A DNA stretch of 64,000 nt from Mumia flava (GTDB lineage Bacteria; Actinomycetota; Actinomycetes; Propionibacteriales; Nocardioidaceae), in assembly GCF_002797495.1 (NCBI RefSeq), contig NZ_PGEZ01000001.1:1922001-1986000 (forward strand). Direction: 5' to 3'. The notes under the pieces were generated by a model. It had not been told where the DNA came from, ran no database searches, and saw only the letters and a program-made list of their open reading frames with translations. Each line of letters opens with the position of its first letter. The stretch's first letter is position 1. Position numbers and translations under genes: made by a program. Of this stretch, positions 4,458 to 15,565 are shown one piece after another.

Positions 4458-5156
4458 CTACATCGCTTCCTTGATGCCCCGCCCGATCAGGACGACGTTC
4501 GCCGGCCACGCGGTCGCGAAGCCCACCAGCATCGCGACCTGCATCATCAGCCAGTAGGTCACCTGGTCGGGCGCGAGGTGCGGGTCGGGGAAGAGCACGA
4601 ACACCACCACCGCCATCCAGCCGAACATCCCGACCTCCCACGCGGTCAGCGACCAGAAGTCCGCCTTCGCCGCCACCCGCAGGCCGTCGCGCACGCCGAG
4701 ACCGCGCATCGGCGCGATCGCGAAGTACTGGAACGCGATCCCCAGCGCCAGCGCGAACGCGTACGAGAAGGCCCACTCGTACGGGAGCGCGAGCCCGGCG
4801 ACGTTCAGGCCGAGCCAGAAGACGAGGAACGCGGCGAGGACGTCACCGAGCGTGCAGCCGGCACCGCAGTGCGTGACGCCGAGCCCGATCGAGGCCCAGC
4901 GCGGCTTGTCCGGCGGTCCGTCGCGGTCGTGCTCACGCAGCCACCGTGGGCTCGTGGTGCGACCGAGGCGCCAGTACGCCCAGACCGCGAACGGACCGGC
5001 GTACAGCGCCGTGATCGGCCAGACCGCCTCCATCACGCCCATCGGCAGGCGGTAGCCGCGCACGAAGACGTCCGCGGCGATCAGCAGCGCGCAGGCGAAT
5101 GCGACGGCGAGGCTCGCCCAGGCGACGGCGACCAACCAGTCCGGCGGGTGGCTCAC
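4458..5156 (-). CDS. DUF4396 family membrane protein
   Basis: The 232-residue integral membrane protein has about six hydrophobic segments. Its central signature THCGAGCTLGD (His96, Cys97, Cys101) marks the DUF4396 family. The Cys/His cluster at a membrane boundary suggests metal binding, and relatives are often found near copper or other metal-handling genes; that link is not visible here. It converges with the DivIVA-domain gene (9 bases apart) and has no obvious operon partner. Function unknown. Confidence 0.75.
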   Translation of the reverse strand: MSHPPDWLVAVAWASLAVAFACALLIAADVFVRGYRLPMGVMEAVWPITALYAGPFAVWAYWRLGRTTSPRWLREHDRDGPPDKPRWASIGLGVTHCGAGCTLGDVLAAFLVFWLGLNVAGLALPYEWAFSYAFALALGIAFQYFAIAPMRGLGVRDGLRVAAKADFWSLTAWEVGMFGWMAVVVFVLFPDPHLAPDQVTYWLMMQVAMLVGFATAWPANVVLIGRGIKEAM

Positions 5157-5287: not shown

Positions 5288-5398
5288 TCAGATCCTCCGC
5301 AGATCCTCGTACCCGCCGTCGGCCCCGCGGAGCCGCACCTTCCGCGGCCCCCGGGCCCGCACCTTCGTCGCCCCTGCTGCCTCGTGCGTGGTGACCAT
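5288..5398 (-). CDS. Small 36-residue basic protein, candidate Crp-regulon member
   Basis: No known family is recognised. The peptide is Arg/Lys/Gly-rich (MVTTHEAAGATKVRARGPRK at the start) and without a membrane segment. The ATG at 5398 is supported by a strong GGAGGA site 8 bases upstream. A perfect TGTCA-N6-TGACA palindrome lies 78 bases upstream, matching the one in front of the MFS gene, and a hairpin follows the stop codon. These three signals make it a better candidate than its length suggests. It could still be a spurious ORF in an intergenic region, or a leader for a regulatory RNA. Confidence 0.5.
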   Translation of the reverse strand: MVTTHEAAGATKVRARGPRKVRLRGADGGYEDLRRI

Positions 5399-5475
5399 CG
5401 TGATCGCTCCTCCGACCCGGCCGGCCCTGGTGACCGGCGACGACCCCAGACTGCGCCGACCGGTGCGGGCGGCGG

Positions 5476-5491
5476 TGTCAGCGTCCTGACA
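5476..5491. promoter_or_regulatory. Crp/Fnr-type operator upstream of the 36-residue ORF
   Basis: TGTCA and TGACA are separated by 6 bases, a perfect palindrome of the half-site spacing used by Crp-family dimers. It lies just beyond the 3' end of the Crp-like gene and upstream of the small ORF. On the minus strand a CAGTCT box starts 22 nt after it (5453-5448), the same geometry as at the MFS promoter. A weaker second site (half match plus TGACA at 5510-5514) lies alongside. Confidence 0.6.
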
Positions 5492-5536
5492 CATCCAGCG
5501 TCCGATCGCTGACACAGCACCTCGGGCGCCGGAGGG

Positions 5537-6241
5537 TCAGCGGTGCGCCAGCCGGCGCAGGGCCGCCGGGTCGGTCACGTCGATCGCGCCGCGCCGCAGG
5601 GCGACGACGCCGCGTTCCTCCAGTCGGCGCAGCACCTGGTTCACCGACGGACGCGCCCCGCCGACCAGCTGAGCGAGGTCGCTCTGGGTCAGCGGCACGG
5701 TCACCGGACCGGGTCCGGCCGCGTACAGGCGGCACAGCTCGTCCAGGCGACGGTGGACCCGCCGGTCGAGTCCTTCGTACATCGCCTCGACCAGCCGTAC
5801 GCTCAGCTCCTCGACCCGGCGGGCGAGCAGAACGGTGAGCAGCCGCTCGATCCCCGGGTGCCGCTGACGCAGACCTCCGAACGTCGACGCCGACAGGGCC
5901 AGCGTCTCCGCGGGCTCCAGCGCCAGCACCGTCGCCGTGCGCTCCTGTGCGGCCCCGGGCATGAGCGCGAGCTCGCCGAAGTAGCTGCCCGGGCCCAGCA
6001 CGTTGAGGATCGCCGAGTCGCCCTCGGAGTTCGACGCGCGGACAGCGAAACGGCCCCGCGCCACGAGGTGCAGGCTGTCCGCCCGGTCGCCCTCCCGGAC
6101 CACCGCCTCGCCGCGGGCGTAGCGGCGGTGGCGAGCGCTCGCGAGCACCCGCTGCCGCTCGTCGTCGGCCAGCGACGCCAGCACCGCCCAGTCCACGGCC
6201 GAAGTCAAGCACGGTCCTCGGCCGCGTGCGCCGTGTTCCAC
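5537..6241 (-). CDS. Crp/Fnr-family transcription regulator
   Basis: This 234-residue protein has an N-terminal cyclic-nucleotide-binding beta barrel and a C-terminal winged helix. The phosphate-binding cassette is preserved: GELALM, then ERTATV, which supply the Glu, Arg and Thr that contact cAMP in Crp. The DNA-binding end reads LTQSDLAQLVGGARPSVNQV. The GTG at 6241 gives the longest product; a TTG at 6208 with GAGGA 7 bases upstream would remove 11 residues and is a serious alternative. The gene is divergent from the MFS-cNMP gene, and a perfect palindrome lies between them, so autoregulation and control of the MFS gene are likely. Ligand identity is inferred. Confidence 0.88.
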   Translation of the reverse strand: MEHGARGRGPCLTSAVDWAVLASLADDERQRVLASARHRRYARGEAVVREGDRADSLHLVARGRFAVRASNSEGDSAILNVLGPGSYFGELALMPGAAQERTATVLALEPAETLALSASTFGGLRQRHPGIERLLTVLLARRVEELSVRLVEAMYEGLDRRVHRRLDELCRLYAAGPGPVTVPLTQSDLAQLVGGARPSVNQVLRRLEERGVVALRRGAIDVTDPAALRRLAHR

Positions 6242-6254
6242 CCTTCTGACCGAG

Positions 6255-6270
6255 TGTCACCACGCTGACA
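6255..6270. promoter_or_regulatory. Crp/Fnr-type operator in the divergent crp/MFS promoter
   Basis: TGTCA-CCACGC-TGACA is a perfect 5-6-5 palindrome. If the MFS mRNA is leaderless and begins at 6305, the operator centre lies at -42.5, next to the -41.5 position used by class II Crp activators. It also sits 14-29 bases upstream of the regulator's GTG. Confidence 0.65.
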
Positions 6271-6291
6271 GACCCGGCGTCGAACCCTCCC

Positions 6292-6297
6292 TAGCGT
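6292..6297 (+). promoter_or_regulatory. -10 box of the MFS-cNMP gene (leaderless start)
   Basis: TAGCGT fits the actinobacterial TANNNT -10 pattern and ends 7 bases before the ATG at 6305. No ribosome site is visible, so the transcript probably begins at the start codon. Confidence 0.5.
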
Positions 6298-6304
6298 CGG
6301 CCTC

Positions 6305-7939
6305 ATGGACACCGCCACCCTCACCGCCGCCGGACGCCGGCCGTACCGCAGCGCGCTGGCCAGCCGCGACTTCCGCCGACTCTTCACCGCGATCGCGGTG
6401 TGGGAGACCGGCGCCTGGTCCTACACGATCGTCCTGACCGCCTACGTCTTCACGCAGAACGGCTCCGCGACGGCCGTCGCCTGGCTCGCCACGAGCCGAT
6501 GGATCACGGGCTTCCTGATCGCCCCGTACGCCGGGGTGCTCGCGGACCGGTTCGACCGCCGGCGGCTGATGGTCACCTGCGCGTCGCTGTCGTCCGTCGC
6601 GATGCTCGCGATGGCCGGGGTGGTCGCGCTCGGGCTCCCGCTGTGGATGCTCGTCGCGCTCTCGATCACGAACGCCGTGCTCGAGTCGCCGAACCGCCCG
6701 GCGTCGGGGGCGATGGTTCCCGAGATCGTCGGGGACCGCGACCTGCCGGCAGCGAACGCGATGATGAACGTGCTGGAGAACGCCGTCGTGGCGGTCGGTC
6801 CCGCGCTGGGCGGTCTCCTGCTCCTGGTCGCCGACCCGGTGGCGGGCGTCCTGCTGAACGCGTGCACGTACGCCGTGGCGGCGCTGCTGATCGGGAGCCT
6901 GTCGCTGAGGTCGCGCGGCGCGGCCGGGGCCGGCGAGGGCGCGTTGCGCCAGGTCGCCGAGGGCGTCGGAGCGCTCCTCGGCAGCCGCGTCGCCGCCGGG
7001 GCGGCGATCGCGACGGCCCTGTGCTCGGGGATCTACGGTGCGACGGTGGTGGTGCTGGTGCCGCTCGCGCACGACATCGGGATCGGCGAGGGCGGGTACG
7101 GCTGGCTGCTCACCGCGGCCGCGCTGGGGAGCATCGCGGGGGCGCCGCTCGCGAGCCGGCTCTCGGGCCTTCCCCGCCTCGAGATCGTCGTCGCCACGGC
7201 GATCGTCGCGGAGGCGATCCCGTTCGCGTTCGCCGCGATGACCGACGACCTGCTCGTGCTCGCGCTGCTGATGGCGTTCTCGGGGGCGGCGATGACGGTC
7301 GTCGACGTCATCGCCCTGACCCTGGTGCAGCGCTCCGTCCCCGACGGGGTGCTGGGACGGGCGCTCGCGACCTTCGACGCGTTCACCCTCGCCGGCATCG
7401 CCGCCTCGGGGGTCGCCGCCGGGCTCGTGCTGGACGCCGCCGGGATCGAGACGACGCTCGTCGCGATCGCGGTCGCGTTCAGTCTCCTCGCGGTGGTGTG
7501 CCTGCCGCTTCTCCGCGGCGCGCGGGTCCGTGACGGGCAGACCGAGCAGCGCGTCGAGCTGCTGGAGCGTCTCGACCTGTTCCGCGGTGTCGCGACGCCG
7601 GCCCTGGAGACGCTCGCGGGGCGCGCCGAGCGCGTGGAGGCCTCCTCCGGCACGGTCCTGGTCCGTGAGGGGGAGCCGGCGGGCGATCTGTGGCTGCTGG
7701 AGTCCGGGACCCTGGCCGCGCACTCGCGCGACCAGCGCTTCCCGAAGGTCGTCGCCCCCGGGTACGTCGGCGAGATCGGCCTCCTGCACACGCGGCCACG
7801 CACCGCGACGGTGGTCGTCGACGAACCCGCGGTCCTGCTCCGCGTCCCCGGCGTCGACTTCCTGCGCGCCCTGGGCACCGGGGAGCCGTCCGACTCACTG
7901 GTCCGGCTCGCCGACGAGCGGGTGCGGCGGACACGCTGA
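6305..7939 (+). CDS. MFS transporter with C-terminal cyclic-nucleotide-binding domain
   Basis: The 544-residue protein begins with a 12-helix major facilitator core (about 15-405). This core is of the MFS_3/EntS-like exporter type and has a loop motif GVLADRFDRRRLM after helix 2. A cNMP-binding domain occupies about 415-535: LFRGVATPALETLAGRAERV, then GEIGLLHTRPRTATV, which keeps the Gly-Glu and Arg-Thr of the phosphate-binding cassette. An exporter gated or tuned by a cyclic nucleotide is the natural reading, but the substrate is unknown. It is divergent from the Crp-like gene across the palindrome and is followed 63 bases later by the first cyclase gene. No ribosome site is visible. Confidence 0.87.
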   Translation: MDTATLTAAGRRPYRSALASRDFRRLFTAIAVWETGAWSYTIVLTAYVFTQNGSATAVAWLATSRWITGFLIAPYAGVLADRFDRRRLMVTCASLSSVAMLAMAGVVALGLPLWMLVALSITNAVLESPNRPASGAMVPEIVGDRDLPAANAMMNVLENAVVAVGPALGGLLLLVADPVAGVLLNACTYAVAALLIGSLSLRSRGAAGAGEGALRQVAEGVGALLGSRVAAGAAIATALCSGIYGATVVVLVPLAHDIGIGEGGYGWLLTAAALGSIAGAPLASRLSGLPRLEIVVATAIVAEAIPFAFAAMTDDLLVLALLMAFSGAAMTVVDVIALTLVQRSVPDGVLGRALATFDAFTLAGIAASGVAAGLVLDAAGIETTLVAIAVAFSLLAVVCLPLLRGARVRDGQTEQRVELLERLDLFRGVATPALETLAGRAERVEASSGTVLVREGEPAGDLWLLESGTLAAHSRDQRFPKVVAPGYVGEIGLLHTRPRTATVVVDEPAVLLRVPGVDFLRALGTGEPSDSLVRLADERVRRTR

Positions 7940-7990
7940 CGGAGCCGAAGAGATCTCCACGTTTGTGCGGCTGAACCCGCCGCGCGGGGA

Positions 7991-7996
7991 TAGTCT
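7991..7996 (+). promoter_or_regulatory. -10 box of first cyclase gene (leaderless start)
   Basis: TAGTCT matches TANNNT and ends 6 bases before the ATG at 8003. There is no Shine-Dalgarno sequence, so leaderless translation is likely. Confidence 0.45.
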
Positions 7997-8002
7997 CCGG
8001 GC

Positions 8003-11000
8003 ATGGACCGTGTCGCCGGCCCCGGTCTCGACTGCGCCGCCTGCGGTCGGGTCCTCCAGGCCGGTTCCCGCTTCTGCACCGAGTGCGGCGCGCCCGTGAC
8101 GGTGCGGTGCGCAGCCTGCGGTGCCGACCTGGTGGGCGGCGCGAAGTTCTGCTCCCAGTGCGGCACCGCCGTCTCGGCCGACAGCGACCCGCCCCCGACC
8201 CGGGGGAACCAGGGGCGCGTCGCAGAGCGCCGCGTCACCAGCGTGCTGTTCGGCGACCTCGTCGGGTTCACCGCGCTGTCGGAAGGCCGCGACCCGGAGC
8301 AGGTCCGCGACCTGTTGTCGACGTACTTCGACCAGTGCCGCGAGGTGGTCGCGCGCTACGGCGGCACGATCGAGAAGTTCATCGGTGACGCTGTGATGGC
8401 CGTGTGGGGAGTGCCGACGACCACCGACTCCGACGCCGAGCGTGCGGTCAGGGCCGGGCTCGACCTGATCGCTGCCGTCCGCTCCTTCGGCAGCGAGCAC
8501 GGGGCGCCCGACCTGGCGATGCGGGTCGGCGTCGTCACCGGGGAGGTCGCAGTCACCCTCGGGGCGCAGGGACAGGGCATGGTCGCCGGGGACGCCGTCA
8601 ACACCGCCTCGCGGGTCCAGGCGATCGCACCGCCGAACGCGGTCTGGGTCGACGAGCAGACGCACGCCCTGACGTCGGAGGCGATCACCTACCGCGACGT
8701 CGGTCAGCACGCCGTGAAGGGGAAGGCGCAGCCTCTGTCGCTCGCGCAGGCCCGTGCGCTCAGCTCGGAGAGCACCGCCGGGGTCGCTGTGGACCTGGTC
8801 GGGTACCACCGCGAGCTCGCACTGCTCAAGAACGAGTTCGCGGCGGCCCAGTCGAGCTCGGCGGGCCGCATGCTGCTGCTCGTCGGTGAGCCCGGAGTCG
8901 GCAAGACCCGCCTCGGCCACGAGTTCGAGGCGTTCATCGACGGGCTGCCCGAGTCGATCCGCTGGCACCGCGGCCGCTGTCTCGCCTACGGCGACGGCGT
9001 CGCGTACTCGGCCCTCGTCGGCGCGGTCCGTGGCCGGATCGGCGCCGAGGACGGAGACGACCCCGAGCTGCTGCGCGAGAAGCTGAGGACCTCGCTGCGC
9101 CGGTGGGTGCCTGATCCGGACGAGGCCGCGTGGCTCACACCGCGCCTGGAGGTGCTGCTCGGGACATCGGGCGCGTCCTTCGAGCGCGACGAGCTGTTCG
9201 CCGCCTGGCTGATGTGGTTCGAGCGGATCGGCGCCGACGGAGCCCCGGTGGTGTGGGTGGTCGACGACCTCCACGCCGCCGACGACTCGTTCCTCGACCT
9301 GCTCGACCACCTCGTACGGTCCTCGTCGGTCGCACTGTTCGTCGTCGGGCTCGCCCGACCCGAGCTCGTGGAGAACCGACCTGCGTCGGCCACCGGGCGC
9401 CGGACCACGACCGTGCACCTCGACGGGCTCAGCGACGCCGAGATGTCCCAGCTGTTCGACGCCCTGGTCGGTGGGCTCGACGACGAGACCCGTCATCGGC
9501 TCGTCGCGCGGGCGGCCGGGATCCCGCTGTACGCGATCGAGACCGTACGGTCGCTGCTCGACCGCGGACTGACCGAGGAGCGTGACGGCCGACTCGTGCT
9601 GCTCGGCGACGCCGCCCCGGACGACATCCTCGACCCCGCGACCACGGCCGGGCTCCAGGTCCTGATCTCCAGCCGCCTCGACATGCTCGGCGACGAGCGC
9701 CGCGCGCTGCTGCAGGACGCGGCGGTGCTGGGCCAGACGTTCTCCGCGCGGGTCCTCGGTGCGGTCTCCGGGCGCGACGTCGGCGAGGTCACCGCGATGC
9801 TCGACACCCTGGTGGCACGCGACCTGCTGACGGTGATCCGCGACCGGCTCTCGTCGGAGGACGGGCAGTACGCCTTCGTCCAGTCGCCGGTCCGCCAGGT
9901 CGCCTACCAGATGCTGTCGCGCCGCGACCGGCGCCGACGCCACCTCGCGGCCGCCGACGCGCTGGAGCCGCAGGCCGACTCCGCGGGCGAGCTCGCCACC
10001 GTCGTCGCGCAGCACCTCACCGAGGCGCTGCAGCTCACCGAGGCGCTGCAGCTCACCGACCCCGACGACCCGTCGTACGACGAGCTGCGAGCGCGCTCGG
10101 ACGCATGGCAGATCACGTCGGCCGAGCGTGTCCGTGCGCTCGGCGCGCTCGACGAGGCGCTGGCCGCCTACGAGCGGATCATCGCGTCGGTGTCCGCACC
10201 GGACCGCCTCGTGCAGCTCCGCCTGGAGGCCGCCGAGATCGCCTACGACCTCGGACGCCACGACCGGGTGATCAGCCACGGGCGGGCGGTGATCGAGGCC
10301 GACGGCGCCACGCCCGACGCCGTCGGCCGGGCACGCATGTGGTCCTCCCACTCTGCTCGGAGCCTCGGCCGGACCCAGGACTCGGAGGCGTTCCTCGCCC
10401 CGTACCCCGACGAGGCTGCCCTGGCCGGGCTCGACACCGTCGTCGCATCCCGCATCGCCGGGTCGCGCAGCATCACCCTGAGCGACCTGGGCAGGCACAC
10501 CGAGGCCGCCCTGTGGGCCGACGTCGCACTCCAGCGGGCAGAGGCGGCCCAGGACGCGCAGGCCACCTACCTGGCGCTCAACACGATGGCGATGCGCGCC
10601 TTCCAGATCGAGACGCCGACGCTGGAGGACGCACTGATGGAGGCGTGCCTGCGGTTCGCGCGCGAGCACAGTCTGCGTCGCGAGCTGGTCCAGGCGCTGG
10701 TGAACCGCTCCGACTCGCTGCTCTCGGCCGATCCCAAGCGAGCACGTGACTGCGCGACGGAGGCGCTCGAGCTCGGCCTCGCCTCCGGCATGCCCAGCGT
10801 GACCTCGTACGCGCAGGCGAACCTGATGCTGGTCCAGCTCGCGGCGGGCGAGTGGGACCAGCTGATCGAGACCGGGCGGGGGCGGCCGGCAGCCGACGGG
10901 TTCGAATCGGTCGACAAGATCTTCGACTTCGCCAGCATCGTCGCCCTCCACAACCTGGTCGCGCTCGCCCGCGGGGACGACCCGGTGGCGCCCGAGGCCT

Positions 11001-11551
11001 GGGAGCGCCCGGACGTCGAGACCGGCGGCCAGCACGAGCAGTACCTGCTCATGCACCTGGGGGTGCTCGCGTGCCATCGCGGCGACGACGACGCGGCGAT
11101 CGCGCTGCTCAGCCGCTCGACGGAGGTGGCCGACGAGCTGTTCGGGCTGGGGGAGGAGGCCTACCTGACGTGGGCGCTGGCGATCGAGCGAGCGGTCGCG
11201 CTCGGCCGGCCGAGTGTCGCACGCGAGGTGCTCGCGAGGATCGACGACGAGCGTGCACGGACCGCCCGGCCGCGCCTGCGCTACGAACGGCTCCGGCTGC
11301 GTGGGACGGTGAACGCGGCGACCGGGGAGGTCCCGCCCGATCAGGTCGAGCACGACCTGCGCGAGGCGATCGCCGGTCTCGCGTCGTTCGGCTCGGTCCC
11401 GACCCGGGCCCGGGCGGAGGCGGTGCTGGGGCGCTGGCTGGCGGAGCAGGGCCGTGCCGACGAGGCCGGTCCGCTGCTCGACTCGGCCACGCAGGCGTTC
11501 GCCTCGCTGCGGGCGACCCGGTGGTCGGCCGAGTACGGTCTGACCCCATGA
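8003..11551 (+). CDS. Zinc-ribbon / class III nucleotide cyclase / AAA ATPase / TPR-like protein (copy 1)
   Basis: The 1182-residue cytoplasmic protein opens with two zinc ribbons (Cys11, 14, 25, 28 and Cys36, 39, 50, 53). A class III cyclase domain (about 75-255) follows, with metal ligands Asp85 (FGDLVGFT) and Asp129 (KFIGD), adenine-position Lys125, and transition-state Asn200 and Arg204. The residue expected to be Asp or Thr for purine selection is Met193, seven before Asn200. An AAA/STAND-type ATPase comes next, with Walker A GEPGVGKT near 293-301 and Walker B VVWVVDD near 415. The rest is a long helical repeat region. It probably makes cAMP under control of ATP binding and an unknown input; low or altered activity is possible given Met193. 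The 3' end overlaps the VOC gene by 4 bases. Confidence 0.87.
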   Translation: MDRVAGPGLDCAACGRVLQAGSRFCTECGAPVTVRCAACGADLVGGAKFCSQCGTAVSADSDPPPTRGNQGRVAERRVTSVLFGDLVGFTALSEGRDPEQVRDLLSTYFDQCREVVARYGGTIEKFIGDAVMAVWGVPTTTDSDAERAVRAGLDLIAAVRSFGSEHGAPDLAMRVGVVTGEVAVTLGAQGQGMVAGDAVNTASRVQAIAPPNAVWVDEQTHALTSEAITYRDVGQHAVKGKAQPLSLAQARALSSESTAGVAVDLVGYHRELALLKNEFAAAQSSSAGRMLLLVGEPGVGKTRLGHEFEAFIDGLPESIRWHRGRCLAYGDGVAYSALVGAVRGRIGAEDGDDPELLREKLRTSLRRWVPDPDEAAWLTPRLEVLLGTSGASFERDELFAAWLMWFERIGADGAPVVWVVDDLHAADDSFLDLLDHLVRSSSVALFVVGLARPELVENRPASATGRRTTTVHLDGLSDAEMSQLFDALVGGLDDETRHRLVARAAGIPLYAIETVRSLLDRGLTEERDGRLVLLGDAAPDDILDPATTAGLQVLISSRLDMLGDERRALLQDAAVLGQTFSARVLGAVSGRDVGEVTAMLDTLVARDLLTVIRDRLSSEDGQYAFVQSPVRQVAYQMLSRRDRRRRHLAAADALEPQADSAGELATVVAQHLTEALQLTEALQLTDPDDPSYDELRARSDAWQITSAERVRALGALDEALAAYERIIASVSAPDRLVQLRLEAAEIAYDLGRHDRVISHGRAVIEADGATPDAVGRARMWSSHSARSLGRTQDSEAFLAPYPDEAALAGLDTVVASRIAGSRSITLSDLGRHTEAALWADVALQRAEAAQDAQATYLALNTMAMRAFQIETPTLEDALMEACLRFAREHSLRRELVQALVNRSDSLLSADPKRARDCATEALELGLASGMPSVTSYAQANLMLVQLAAGEWDQLIETGRGRPAADGFESVDKIFDFASIVALHNLVALARGDDPVAPEAWERPDVETGGQHEQYLLMHLGVLACHRGDDDAAIALLSRSTEVADELFGLGEEAYLTWALAIERAVALGRPSVAREVLARIDDERARTARPRLRYERLRLRGTVNAATGEVPPDQVEHDLREAIAGLASFGSVPTRARAEAVLGRWLAEQGRADEAGPLLDSATQAFASLRATRWSAEYGLTP

Positions 11552-11949
11552 CGTCCCGGATCTCGCACACGACCTTCGACGCGCACGACACCCGGGCCCA
11601 GGCGGCGTGGTGGGCCGAGGTGCTCGGCTACACCGTCGAGCCGGACCTCGACCCGGACGAGCCGGACGTGGAGATCCTGCCCCGCGACGACACGCCCCCA
11701 GGCGCGGGGGTGCTGCTGTTCCAGGTCGTGCCCGAGGGAAAGACGGTGAAGAACCGCCTGCACCTCGACCTGCGCCCGACCGACCGCTCGCGCGACGAGG
11801 AGGTCGAGCGGGTGCTCGGCCTCGGTGCGACCCAGCTGGCCGACCTGCGCAACCCCGACGGCACGGGCTGGGTCGTGCTGGCCGACCCGGAGGGCAACGA
11901 GTTCTGCATCCTGCGCAGCGACGCGGAGGTCGCGGCGACGACGGGGTGA
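11548..11949 (+). CDS. VOC (glyoxalase/bleomycin-resistance fold) protein
   Basis: This 133-residue single-domain protein starts in an ATGA overlap with the first cyclase gene and is therefore translationally coupled to it. The beta-alpha-beta-beta-beta fold markers are SHTTFDAHD at the start, a central LHLDLRP strand, and GWVVLADPEGNEFCIL near the end. VOC members bind a metal and act on or sequester small molecules; His and Glu candidates are present (His7, the His of LHLDL, Glu of GNEFC), but no specific reaction can be assigned. It separates two paralogous cyclase genes. Confidence 0.82.
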   Translation: MTSRISHTTFDAHDTRAQAAWWAEVLGYTVEPDLDPDEPDVEILPRDDTPPGAGVLLFQVVPEGKTVKNRLHLDLRPTDRSRDEEVERVLGLGATQLADLRNPDGTGWVVLADPEGNEFCILRSDAEVAATTG

Positions 11950-12006
11950 GGTCCTCCGCAGGCCCCGCCCCGTGAACATCGCGGGCGTTCCGGGTCCGAT
12001 CGGCGT

Positions 12007-12012
12007 TAACCT
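12007..12012 (+). promoter_or_regulatory. -10 box of second cyclase gene (leaderless start)
   Basis: TAACCT matches TANNNT and ends 7 bases before the ATG at 12020, with no ribosome site. The layout repeats that of the first cyclase gene. Confidence 0.45.
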
Positions 12013-12019
12013 CCCGAGC

Positions 12020-15000
12020 ATGGAGCGTCTCCGCGGTGGGACCCTCGACTGCACGACCTGCGGTCAGACCCTGCCCGCGGGCACCCGCTTCTGCACGCGA
12101 TGCGGGGCGCCCGTGGAACGGCCCTGCCGCGCCTGCGCCTCACCCGTCCCCGCGGGCGCGCGCTTCTGTCCCCAGTGCGGCACCAGCACGGCGGCGGCGA
12201 CGGAGGGGTCGATGGTGCCGGCGACGATCGGGACCGGCCCGGTCCGCGTCGCCGAGCGGCGCGTGACGAGCGTGCTGTTCGGCGACCTCGTGGGCTTCAC
12301 GACGCTGTCCGAGCAGCGCGACCCCGACGCCGTACGGGAGCTGCTGTCGACCTACTTCGACCGCTGCCGCACCGTGATCGCGCGTTACGGCGGCACGATC
12401 GAGAAGTTCATCGGCGATGCGGTGATGGCGGTCTGGGGCGTGCCGACCGCCACCGACGACGACGCCGAGCGCGCGGTCCGGGCGGGCCGGGAGCTGATCG
12501 CGGCGGTGCGGGAGTTCGGCAGCGAGCACGGCGCCCCCGACCTGGCCATGCGGGTCGGGGTGGTCACCGGCGAGGTCGCCGTGACGCTGGGATCGACCGA
12601 GGAGGGCATGGTCGCCGGCGACACCGTCAACACTGCCGCGCGGGTCCAGTCGCTCGCGACCCCCAACCAGGTCTGGGTCGACGAGCAGACGCGCGAGATG
12701 ACCACGCACGCGATCGCGTACCGCGCGGCCGGGAGCCACACACTCAAGGGGAAGGCGCTCCCGCTGGAGCTGTGGGAGGTCAACGGGATCGCCCCCGACA
12801 GCGCGGCGGGCGTCGCGGTCCCGCTGGTCGGGTACGCCCGCGAGCTGGGGCTGCTGAAGAGCGAGTTCCAGGCCGCGCGGGCGTCGTCGTCGGGTCGGAT
12901 GCTCCTGCTGGTCGGCGACCCGGGCACGGGCAAGACCCGACTGGGCAGCGAGTTCGAGGAGTACGCCGACGAGCTCGCGTACCGGGTGCGGTGGCACCGC
13001 GGCCGCTGCCTCGCGTTCGGCGACGGGGTCGCGTACTCCGCCCTGGTCGGTGCGGTACGGGGTCGGATCGGCGCCGAGGACACCGACGACGTCCCGACCC
13101 TCGTGACCAAGCTGCACAGCGCGGTCGCCCAGTGGGTGCCCGACCCGGAGGAGGCCGCGTGGATCACGCCGCGGCTCGAGACGCTGCTGGGGCTGAGCAG
13201 CGGGTCGTACGAGCGTGACGACCTCTTTGCCGCGTGGCAGACGTGGTTCGAGCGCCTCGGCGCCGACGGTGCGCCGGTCGTCTGGCTGGTCGACGACCTG
13301 CACGCCGCCGACGGGGCGTTCCTCGAGCTCGTCGACCACCTCGTCCGCGCGTCCGCCGTGGCGCTGTTCGTGATCGGGCTCGCGCGTCCGGAGATCCTCG
13401 AGGAGCACCCGGAGGTGGCGACCGGTCGACGGACCACGACGGTGCACCTGGAAGGGCTGTCCGAGCCCGAGATGGCCGAGCTGTTCGCCGGGCTCGTGGA
13501 CGGGCTCGCCCCCGCCGCGCGCGACGTCCTCGTCGAACGGTCGGCGGGCGTCCCGCTGTACGCGATCGAGATCGTCCGCTCGTTGATCGACCGCGGCCTG
13601 ACGCTCGGTGAGGTCGGTCGGCTCCGCCTGCGCGAGGACGCCGACCCCGAGCAGATCCTCGATCCGGCGACGACGGCCGGCCTCCAGGTCCTGATCACCA
13701 GCCGGCTCGACCTGCTCGGCGAGGAGCGCCGGACCCTGCTCCAGGACGCCGCCGTGATCGGTCAGACCTTCTCCGCCCAGGTGCTCGCCGCAGCGTCCGG
13801 CCGCGACGAGCAGGAGGTCGCCTCGATCCTCGACGAGCTGGTGGCGCGCGACCTGCTCACCGTCGTGCGCGAGCGGCTGTCGGCGGACGACGGTCAGTAC
13901 GCCTTCGTCCAGACCCCGGTCCGCCAGGTCGCGTACCAGATGCTGGCGCGTCGCGACCGTCGCATCCGCCACCTCGCTGCCGCGGACGCGCTCGAGCCCT
14001 TGGCCGAGACCTCGGGCGACCTGACCACGATCGTCGCCGAGCACCTGGTCGAGGCGCTGCGGCTCACCGGTCCGCACGACCCGGGACGGGACGGCCTCGT
14101 ACGCCGGGTCCGCCGGTGGCAGATCGCGTCCGCGGAACGTGTCCGGGCGCTCGGCGCGCTCGGTGAGGCGCTCGTGCTGTACGGGCGGGTGATCGACGAG
14201 CTCGACGACCCCGAGGAGGCGGTGCGCCTGCACCTGGTCGCCGCCGAGATCGCGTTCGAGCTGGGCAACCCCGAGATCGTCGTCCAGCACGCCACGGCGG
14301 TCTTCGAGAGCGGGCACGCAGGCGCCGACGACGAGGCGCAGGCCCGGATGTGGGCCGCGAACGCCACCCGCATCCTCGGCCGGCTCGAGGACGCCGAACG
14401 GATCCTCACCCCGTACGCCACCGCTGACGCCCTCGACGGCGTGAACGACGTGATCGCGTCGTTCGTCGCCGGTGCGTGGGCCGCGGTCACGCTCGAACAG
14501 GGCCGCGCCGAGGAGTCCGCCCGCTGGGACCAGGTCGCGTTGTTGCGCGCGGAGGCGGCCGACGACGCCCGTGCGACGTACCTCGCCCTGAACTCCATGG
14601 CGCTGAACGCCCAGCAGGCCGGTACGCGTGCGCTCCAGGACGCACTCCTGGAGGCGGGTCTGCGGTTCGCGCGCGAGCACGGACTGCGTCGCGAGCTCGT
14701 GCAGGCCCTCGTGAACCGGTCGGACGCGCTGATCTCCGTCGACCCGAAGCGGGCGTTCGGCTATGCCACCGAGGCACTCGACCTGGCGCTCGCCTCGGGG
14801 ATGGCCGGGATCGCGGCGTACGGGCAGACCAACCTCATGCTCGTCCAGTACGTGACCGGCGCGTGGGACGAGCTGACCGAGACCGCGAGCCGCAGGCCGG
14901 CTGCCGACGGCCTGGACAGCGAGGAGCGGCTGTACGACTACGGGGCGGTCGTCGCGCTCCAGAACCTGGTAGCGACCGCGCGCGGGTCCGAGGCGGTGGC

Positions 15001-15565
15001 CCCGCCGACCTGGGAGGAGCTGGACCCCACGAGCGGGGGCCAGCACGGCCAGATCCTGCTCATGCATCTCGGGACGCTCGCGGCCGCCCGCGGCGACGAC
15101 CGGCAGGCCATCGGGCTGCTGCGTCGCTCGTTCGAGCTCGCCGGCACCGTCACCGGGATCAGCGAGGAGGCGGTCCTGGTGTGGACGCTGGCGATCGAGC
15201 GCGCGGTGGCGACCGGCGACCTGGACGTCGCGCGCTCGCTGCTGGCCGAGCTCGACGACGTCCAGGTGCTGCGTGAGCGGCACCACGCCGAACGACTCCG
15301 GCTCAGCGGCACCGTCGCCGCAGCCGACCCGTCGAGCGACCCGGCGCTCGTCGAGGCCGACCTCCGTGCCGCCGTCTCCGAGCTGAGCGACTTCGGCGCT
15401 CCGCCGAGCCGTGCGCGGGCCGAGGCGACGCTGGGACGGTGGCTCGGGTCGCGGGGGCGGGCCGACGAGGCCGACGCCCTGCTGCTGTCGGCGGCGGGGA
15501 CCTTCCGCGAGCTCGGCGCGACCCGCTGGCTCGACGAGTTCGGGCTGGCCGACCGCACTCCGTGA
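12020..15565 (+). CDS. Zinc-ribbon / class III nucleotide cyclase / AAA ATPase / TPR-like protein (copy 2)
   Basis: This 1181-residue paralogue is almost the same length as copy 1. The eight zinc-ribbon cysteines fall at identical positions (11, 14, 25, 28, 36, 39, 50, 53). The cyclase motifs FGDLVGFT, KFIGD and GDTVNTAARVQ are present, again with Met where the second purine-selecting residue is expected. The ATPase has Walker A GDPGTGKT and Walker B VVWLVDD. Identity with copy 1 is high through the cyclase and ATPase domains and drifts in the helical C-terminus. The ATG at 12020 is chosen by alignment with copy 1 and by the -10 box just upstream. Tandem duplication followed by divergence of the sensor part is the simplest explanation. 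Confidence 0.87.
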   Translation: MERLRGGTLDCTTCGQTLPAGTRFCTRCGAPVERPCRACASPVPAGARFCPQCGTSTAAATEGSMVPATIGTGPVRVAERRVTSVLFGDLVGFTTLSEQRDPDAVRELLSTYFDRCRTVIARYGGTIEKFIGDAVMAVWGVPTATDDDAERAVRAGRELIAAVREFGSEHGAPDLAMRVGVVTGEVAVTLGSTEEGMVAGDTVNTAARVQSLATPNQVWVDEQTREMTTHAIAYRAAGSHTLKGKALPLELWEVNGIAPDSAAGVAVPLVGYARELGLLKSEFQAARASSSGRMLLLVGDPGTGKTRLGSEFEEYADELAYRVRWHRGRCLAFGDGVAYSALVGAVRGRIGAEDTDDVPTLVTKLHSAVAQWVPDPEEAAWITPRLETLLGLSSGSYERDDLFAAWQTWFERLGADGAPVVWLVDDLHAADGAFLELVDHLVRASAVALFVIGLARPEILEEHPEVATGRRTTTVHLEGLSEPEMAELFAGLVDGLAPAARDVLVERSAGVPLYAIEIVRSLIDRGLTLGEVGRLRLREDADPEQILDPATTAGLQVLITSRLDLLGEERRTLLQDAAVIGQTFSAQVLAAASGRDEQEVASILDELVARDLLTVVRERLSADDGQYAFVQTPVRQVAYQMLARRDRRIRHLAAADALEPLAETSGDLTTIVAEHLVEALRLTGPHDPGRDGLVRRVRRWQIASAERVRALGALGEALVLYGRVIDELDDPEEAVRLHLVAAEIAFELGNPEIVVQHATAVFESGHAGADDEAQARMWAANATRILGRLEDAERILTPYATADALDGVNDVIASFVAGAWAAVTLEQGRAEESARWDQVALLRAEAADDARATYLALNSMALNAQQAGTRALQDALLEAGLRFAREHGLRRELVQALVNRSDALISVDPKRAFGYATEALDLALASGMAGIAAYGQTNLMLVQYVTGAWDELTETASRRPAADGLDSEERLYDYGAVVALQNLVATARGSEAVAPPTWEELDPTSGGQHGQILLMHLGTLAAARGDDRQAIGLLRRSFELAGTVTGISEEAVLVWTLAIERAVATGDLDVARSLLAELDDVQVLRERHHAERLRLSGTVAAADPSSDPALVEADLRAAVSELSDFGAPPSRARAEATLGRWLGSRGRADEADALLLSAAGTFRELGATRWLDEFGLADRTP

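Follow-up and report, generated by a model that had tools for sequence, protein, structure and literature searches.

A Crp regulator, its candidate operators and tandem class III cyclases in Mumia flava: a possible reduced or diverged variant of a peptide-associated cyclic-nucleotide module

Why do a Crp-family regulator, a transporter with a cyclic-nucleotide-monophosphate (cNMP)-binding domain of its own, an open reading frame (ORF) of 36 amino acids (aa) and two giant cyclases lie side by side in Mumia flava? The set was found in a 64-kb stretch of the assembly GCF_002797495.1 (contig NZ_PGEZ01000001.1, positions 1,922,001-1,986,000 of the forward strand; hereafter the window, to which all positions refer), which belongs to a genome of 4.40 Mb (G000; G and L numbers denote genomes and fetched stretches of relatives, respectively). 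An earlier reading of the window (the original prediction) described a Crp, a divergent major facilitator superfamily (MFS) transporter with a cNMP-binding domain, the 36-aa ORF and two zinc-ribbon/class III cyclase/AAA proteins, a gene set that Pfam confirmed, and proposed that they form a local second-messenger circuit controlling an efflux pump. Two questions follow: are these genes a unit, and if so, what does the unit serve? That they are neighbours by chance is largely refuted. On balance we lean towards an accessory cyclic-nucleotide module organized around a small peptide, of which the window would carry a reduced or diverged variant; this variant has another peptide and is without the subtilase of its relatives.

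The regulator is encoded on the minus strand by an ORF that is open from 5537 to 6241, with the start more likely at GTG 6196, where its orthologues begin (gene at 5537-6196). It has the domains of the CRP/FNR fold, cNMP_binding (PF00027, E 1.3e-20, 73.6 bits) and HTH_Crp_2 (PF13545, E 3.5e-15, 56.1 bits), both above cut-off. Divergent to it, the plus-strand ORF at 6305-7939 encodes in one chain an MFS transporter (MFS_1/MFS_3; PF07690/PF05977) and a C-terminal cNMP_binding domain (PF00027, residues 445-523, E 5.9e-13), whose best PDB matches, PKG and the acetyltransferase Pat, are alike in the cassette. By reading and alignment the phosphate-binding cassettes of both proteins look intact, in line with the original prediction (GELAL..ERTA in Crp; GEIGL..PRTA in the MFS). 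The window Crp shares with CRP and Vfr the cNMP domain, the Crp-type helix-turn-helix (HTH) and the G-E and R-[ST]-A of the cassette, but differs from them in its recognition helix (RPSVNQVL; RETVGRIL in E. coli CRP), in its presumed operator (TGTC(A/G)..(A/G)AC; TGTGA..TCACA in E. coli) and in its local cluster. The helix RPSVNQVL is nearly invariant in 13 aligned orthologues, which fits a single shared operator.

Beyond the transporter, on the plus strand, lie cyclase A (8003-11551) and cyclase B (12020-15565; the ORF is open from GTG 11825, and the start is likely at ATG 12020). According to Pfam both carry a double zinc ribbon (DZR/Zn_Ribbon), a class III cyclase domain (Guanylate_cyc, E 1e-24 and 3.4e-23) and AAA_16. 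TPR repeats, which had been attributed to both, were detected in cyclase A alone (TPR_12, E 0.0004) and drew no match in cyclase B. The latter is 64% identical to A over 1184 aa, a similarity that makes the two tandem duplicates. Alignment of cyclase A to CyaB (3r5g) showed that D85, K125, D129, N200 and R204 are retained, which we take to be the two metal-binding Asp, the base-contacting Lys and the transition-state Asn and Arg of class III cyclases; the catalytic residues of cyclase B were judged through its similarity to A.

Whether such genes belong together was assessed in relatives. The Crp orthologue class was defined by searching 149 family genomes with the window Crp: 18 of them carry an orthologue (E 7e-55 or better; the 17 non-self ones at 45-61% identity), and in the remaining genomes the best Crp match was no better than E 2e-25, those listed being 30-38% identical (G146 had none). 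All PF00211 and PF00027 places of the 18 genomes (five and six, respectively, in G000) were then collected, with presence values tabulated by hand. In eight of the 18, a class III cyclase is encoded no more than 10 kb from the Crp orthologue (G000, G092, G114, G058, G006, G117, G111 and G108; the G006 case is a 1200-aa protein with two weak tandem domains, 35.6 and 28.3 bits), whereas the numbers of cyclases and the genome sizes predict 0.70 (P ~1e-7). With the near-copies G117, G111 and G108 counted once the figure was 6/16 (P ~2e-5), and the core Crp paralogue of the same genomes, taken as control, had a cyclase within 10 kb in just one of 18 (G022). The original prediction had staked itself on the Crp, MFS and cyclase genes not co-occurring rarely, and the outcome speaks for it. 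Moreover another cNMP-domain protein was found within 10 kb of Crp in 14/18 genomes (not in G017, G039, G129 and G130).

Seen from the transporter, the 20 stretches fetched as the better matches of the MFS-cNMP search include four (L046-L049) in which the MFS gene is followed immediately by that of a full-length zinc-ribbon cyclase, two of them (L046, L047) having this pair without a Crp nearby; a full-length cyclase lies within a few kb of the MFS-cNMP gene in L034 and L037, and a weaker match (26-27%) in L042 and L043. At the level of the phylum, 11 of 396 genomes (own included) carry the Crp at E up to 1e-45, and outside the family a cyclase was present in four of 11 fetched neighbourhoods (L105, L108, L110 and L112). 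A search of genome contigs with the MFS gave a single poor match, and a Crp search of viral contigs gave none.

Two arrangements in these tables deserve mention in their own right. In L077, L078 and L079 (G117, G111 and G108) crp is preceded immediately, on its own strand, by the gene of a 437-aa class III cyclase and followed by that of a single-domain cNMP protein of 136/137 aa, a minimal cyclase-Crp-cNMP set. Away from Crp, several of the 18 tabulated genomes (e.g. G040, G023, G083, G100 and G112) show another recurrent cyclase-cNMP pair, a small cNMP gene being separated from a class III cyclase by no more than ~1 kb.

What the module serves is suggested by a further set of genes in the relatives. 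Gene calling and clustering of neighbour genes over 20 loci, with Pfam applied to part of the neighbours, brought out a recurrent pair of a GAF protein and a subtilase (the latter annotated in L066). The subtilase is present in 11 of the 149 family genomes (orthologue threshold E up to 1e-30), with the Crp orthologue within ~1.1 kb in all 11, and gene calling found the GAF protein at 10 of these 11 loci. The same 11 genomes all hold genes for small DVEGH/DVEAH-type peptides with D-D-(V/T)-E-G-H repeats, two to nine per peptide except for a single repeat in one G022 gene: nine genes were found by regular expression, one (DVEAH plus DVNAH, L072 of G100) through its operator and two in G022 by a wider expression. 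In L071 (G022) two DVEGH-type peptide genes (13347-13520 and 15327-15470, minus strand) flank the MFS-cNMP gene.

Several candidates in this comparison were set aside. Four regular-expression matches (L039 4217-7900, L041 101-1546, L043 and L049) were dropped as long frames without the repeat. A DVEGH search over the 149 genomes gave 16 with a match, five being known cluster members and 11 chance-like matches in long frames; this search is insensitive, missed six of the 11 known genomes and says little about absence, G000 included. Neither Pfam nor NCBIfam had a family matching the two DVEGH peptides that were scanned. Besides Crp/MFS/cNMP, subtilase, GAF and cyclase, just two families were common to at least four of the 20 clustered loci, F4 (ABC ATPase) and F5. 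As to tailoring genes, those shared by G092 and G100 (HemN-like radical SAM, DUF4870, DUF3097, HrcA, DnaJ and an RNA methyltransferase) and those shared by G040, G058 and G023 (Fur, ABC ATPase, undecaprenyl diphosphate synthase, MarR and RecO, and likewise a hydrolase, a histidine kinase, an acetyltransferase and ZnuA) look housekeeping, and one shared 119-aa family from this comparison had no match. A plasmid of Miltoncostaea oceani, of another class, carries a related gene run without Crp, consisting of a cyclase/kinase followed by, among others, a sigma factor, a subtilase, a GAF protein, a metallo-hydrolase and an MFS-cNMP; no DVEGH repeat was found in this stretch, and a metallo-beta-lactamase-fold gene was rejected as a shared part, the G092/G100 kind and the Miltoncostaea kind being dissimilar (best E 0.027).

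The peptide genes of the relatives share an operator of the relaxed form TGTC(A/G)N7(A/G)AC(A/G), often doubled at 23 bp and lying ~70 bp before them. The exact form TGTCAN6TGACA was not found before crp in the relatives, in which the relaxed form alone is conserved. All 1024 palindromic half-sites were scanned 40-140 bp before the starts in the promoters of the nine DVEGH-peptide genes: the window-derived half-site TGTCA scored 67, reached by 13 of the 1024 palindromes, and was the first of 60 half-sites of equal composition, the overall top being its near-variant TGTCG (score 72). An automatic score for TGTC..GACA, a pattern fixed after the result of the half-site scan was seen, gave at least seven of eight core letters in seven of the nine promoters (six letters in L069 and L074), as against 3.2% of shuffled promoters. 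Read by eye, a proximal operator precedes all nine peptide genes found by regular expression (as a CGTC variant in L070). Its distance to the start is 67-77 bp in eight of them and 25 bp in L067 (70 from a later Met). This copy was not the best-scoring one in L035 and L067 and was tied with another in L069 and L074. A second copy 23 bp upstream was evident by eye in six of the nine (L035, L039, L066, L067, L070 and L074) and in the window.

A sequence-only model (R1) built from nine 45-bp stretches of relatives also led beyond its training set: it pointed to the DVEAH-peptide gene of L072, missed by the regular expression, with a site at 75 bp, and to a site 79 bp before the GAF-subtilase pair of L037. 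An operator also lies ~74 bp before the single-domain cNMP gene in L077, L078 and L079. R1 matches in L105, L107 and L112 were weak. Apart from these, L074 encodes at 13556-13993 (plus strand) a 145-aa protein whose start resembles a signal peptide; it has an R1 site at 64 bp on the opposite strand and is a possible further target. A strong R1 site of 21.5 bits outside the training set (L039 8865-8907) lies 41 bp before a thioesterase-like gene if the other strand is read.

In the window, two palindromes were found by eye, TGTCAGCGTCCTGACA at 5476 and TGTCACCACGCTGACA at 6255. They are the sole places of the exact TGTCAN6TGACA in the 4.4-Mb genome: operator O1 (TGTCAGGACGCTGACA, 5476-5491, minus strand) and operator O3 (6255-6270, in the divergent crp/MFS gap, 58 bases before the crp start at 6196 and 34 before the MFS ATG). 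A reversed control pattern occurs at one place in the genome, and shuffling gives an expectation of 0.05 per 64 kb or ~3 per genome, so what stands out is where the palindromes lie, around crp, and not how many there are. Operator O2 (TGTCAGCGATCGGACG, 5499-5514, minus strand) lies 23 bp upstream of O1. With a position weight matrix (PWM) built from the nine relatives only, the window being left out, O2 ranked first in the 64 kb at 20.4 bits, O3 fourth and O1 fifth; O2 is also the top site of the whole genome for R1, though not significantly so, and in a run of R1 over 33 sources the window site had E 0.035. The operator itself is thus supported by sequence comparison, and Crp is its presumed binder.

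Behind this operator pair, on the minus strand, lies the 36-aa ORF (5288-5398), which encodes a putative small, Arg-rich peptide, MVTTHEAAGATKVRARGPRKVRLRGADGGYEDLRRI. Its ATG is 77 bp from the operator, a distance as for the DVEGH-peptide genes, so that the window holds a Crp orthologue together with an operator pair ~70-77 bp before a small ORF. A GGAGGAG ribosome site stands upstream of it, a position where GGAGG occurs in six of the 131 window frames that start with ATG and encode 30-60 aa, and its GC contents by codon position (0.75/0.58/0.92) resemble those of neighbour genes. Downstream of the ORF on the same strand, a DUF4396 membrane protein is encoded at 4458-5156, and read-through into it from the same promoter is possible.

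How the window variant may have come about is indicated by the Crp tree and by the genus. The 18 family rows of the Crp protein tree form one group (support 100/99, midpoint root). The five rows with a single-domain cNMP gene are a clade of their own (99/97), and the window row lies inside the group, unresolved, among rows with subtilase and peptides, a placement for which parsimony favours, and so suggests, a loss of the subtilase set in the window lineage. Elsewhere in the genus (five genomes) the best Crp match is of the core type and no full-length MFS-cNMP was among the matches listed, while all five have the glyoxalase gene and the tRNA-Leu and FHA genes beyond the set, which makes the module accessory in the genus. 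This glyoxalase gene (Glyoxalase_6, 133 aa, 11548-11949, plus strand) lies between the two cyclases, its ATG overlapping the stop of cyclase A; its homologue in the sister genomes occupies the same region and has no cyclase next to it, which suggests that the gene flanked by the cyclases is the older one. The genes of the left flank were not found in the fetched 20 kb of the sister genomes, and no clean empty site was seen.

A number of observations speak against a peptide-centred module, or against the window as a member of it. i) The 36-aa ORF has no homologue above chance level in 341 family genomes: 45 were listed at E up to 0.1, yet these matches were taken as chance, with E 0.006 at best among non-self ones and mostly in longer frames. 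It also lacks the DVEGH repeat. ii) No orthologue of the relatives' subtilase was detected in G000 at E up to 1e-30, so maturation would be absent or be performed by another protease, and no recurring family of peptide-modifying enzymes was found among the clustered loci, as far as Pfam covered the neighbours. iii) Ten of the 18 genomes have no cyclase within 10 kb of Crp (G017 and G039 being on short contigs); the MFS-cNMP gene is on a separate contig in G039 and G129, each of these contigs carrying a cyclase, and in G130 it is 13 kb from Crp, with a peptide gene beside it. Full-length MFS-cNMP proteins at 35-38% identity occur in just six other genomes, other full-length matches listed being at 26-32%. 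iv) The proximal operators of L035, L067, L069 and L074 match six of eight core letters; 34% of shuffled promoters have a best score at least as high, so such sites are weak singly. v) The PWM maxima of 20 shuffled windows ranged from 11.8 to 20.5, one of the 20 reaching the window score. R1, scanned over the genome (150 of 2159 first-look candidates scored, 14 listed), ranked 5498-5521 first of the 14 at E 0.23, which is not significant alone. vi) O3, just 34 bases before the MFS ATG, would fit repression as well. vii) Where canonical adenylate cyclases carry Asp/Thr at the base-specifying position, cyclase A has Met193 and cyclase B a Met at the same motif, and with Met there ATP, GTP and a pyrimidine substrate are indistinguishable from sequence.

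If the locus is nonetheless a cyclic-nucleotide module around a small peptide, it might work as follows. The two STAND-like cyclases would make a cyclic nucleotide when their TPR/AAA part senses an input; Crp, whose cassette is seen, would bind this nucleotide and then the operator; at O1 and O2 it would switch on the 36-aa peptide gene, and at O3 it would control its own gene and that of the exporter. The same nucleotide may gate the MFS through its cNMP domain, so that the pump would run when the cargo is made, the cargo being most simply the peptide or its product. A more far-reaching form of this idea, which we regard as less likely than not, is an intercellular loop, in which a Crp-controlled repeat precursor would be cut by the subtilase in the cell, exported by the cNMP-gated MFS and sensed by the TPR/AAA part of the cyclase, TPR proteins of the RRNPP type being known to sense peptides; such a signalling or competition system would be diversified, with a variable peptide slot (DVEGH, DVEAH or 36-aa), and the window would be one of its alleles.

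The explanation that survives best beside the peptide-centred module, though we regard it as unlikely, is the one nearest to the original prediction: a small-molecule efflux pump with a drug-like cargo would be under the control of a local cNMP circuit, and the 36-aa ORF would be a leader or a chance ORF. This reading is consistent with the transporter, in which MFS_3 was found and which has an H+-antiporter-type similarity (TIGR00900) below cut-off; with the orphan status of the 36-aa ORF; and with the lack of a subtilase of the relatives' type in G000 and of any DVEGH peptide in a six-frame scan of the window, which does not hold the subtilase and DVEGH peptide beside Crp that mark the relatives. 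However, the relatives place the operator regularly before peptide genes, the window ORF stands at the same distance, and peptide, subtilase and Crp are linked in 11 of 11 cases. The proposed circuit controlling an efflux pump thus stands in so far as its genes co-occur, but it is incomplete, the operator of the relatives most consistently marking the repeat-peptide gene.

In a further, improbable alternative the module would respond to metal or stress, its acidic, His-containing peptides binding metal instead of serving as signals or antimicrobials and the GAF protein being the sensor. The DDVEGH repeats are acidic and contain His, GAF lies beside the subtilase in 10/11 loci, and the clusters of G058 and G023 each have a Fur-family and a ZnuA gene in their vicinity, that of G040 a Fur-family gene; but the window peptide is without the motif, and the Fur and ZnuA neighbours are common to loci of one genus only and may be core genes.

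We consider it highly improbable that the set is an anti-phage Pycsar-like system, i.e., a class III cyclase for cyclic CMP or UMP (cCMP/cUMP) with cNMP-domain effectors. Like Pycsar, the window has class III cyclases and cNMP-domain proteins, the MFS being a membrane protein with such a domain, and PADLOC models do match: the cyclases are recognized by PycC (best E 3.2e-21), Crp and MFS in their cNMP parts by PycTIR/TIR-effector models, and the relatives' subtilase by a 'subtilase' model (E 7.9e-18). The matches of the window proteins are, however, confined to the shared cyclase or cNMP domain, Pfam found no TIR domain and the set includes no known effector type, whereas Crp with its operators and the peptide point to regulated expression. 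A chance neighbourhood is hardly credible: cyclase and cNMP domains are common (two to 17 PF00211 matches per genome in the 18 genomes), but chance does not account for the eight observed against 0.7 expected cases, the single case of the control paralogue or the four MFS-cNMP stretches with a cyclase directly behind.

Among known systems, the best NCBIfam match of both cyclases is the TOMM kinase/cyclase TIGR03903, linked to peptide clusters by name, over their cyclase-AAA part. The scores (203.7 and 188.5 bits) are far under the cut-off of 705.75, Pfam found no kinase domain, and no TOMM gene was seen among the neighbours put through Pfam, which are part of all neighbours. The L066 subtilase (Peptidase_S8) matches mycosin, QhpE and weakly PatA in NCBIfam, all below cut-off; it resembles the maturation subtilases QhpE and cyanobactin PatA in lying next to a small precursor-like peptide, and the window genome is without such a subtilase. 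Measured against ribosomally synthesized and post-translationally modified peptides (RiPPs), the relatives have peptide genes and a subtilase, and the window holds the 36-aa ORF only. The mycobacterial proteins Rv3728 and Rv3239c, like the window MFS, are MFS transporters fused to a cNMP domain, and we know of no Crp/peptide/cyclase cluster for them. Adenylate cyclases have been noted near some graspetide loci (PMC8939145). The titles, abstract openings and few passages of open-access literature consulted contain no description of the DVEGH peptides or of this gene set.

The operator offers a handle for finding peptide genes by their regulation, not by their sequence, which worked once (L072). 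Bacterial signals of the cyclic AMP type are usually regarded as global. If the peptide-centred reading is true, a compact mobile set with its own cyclases, Crp, operator and cNMP-domain pump would represent a second messenger dedicated to one peptide product.

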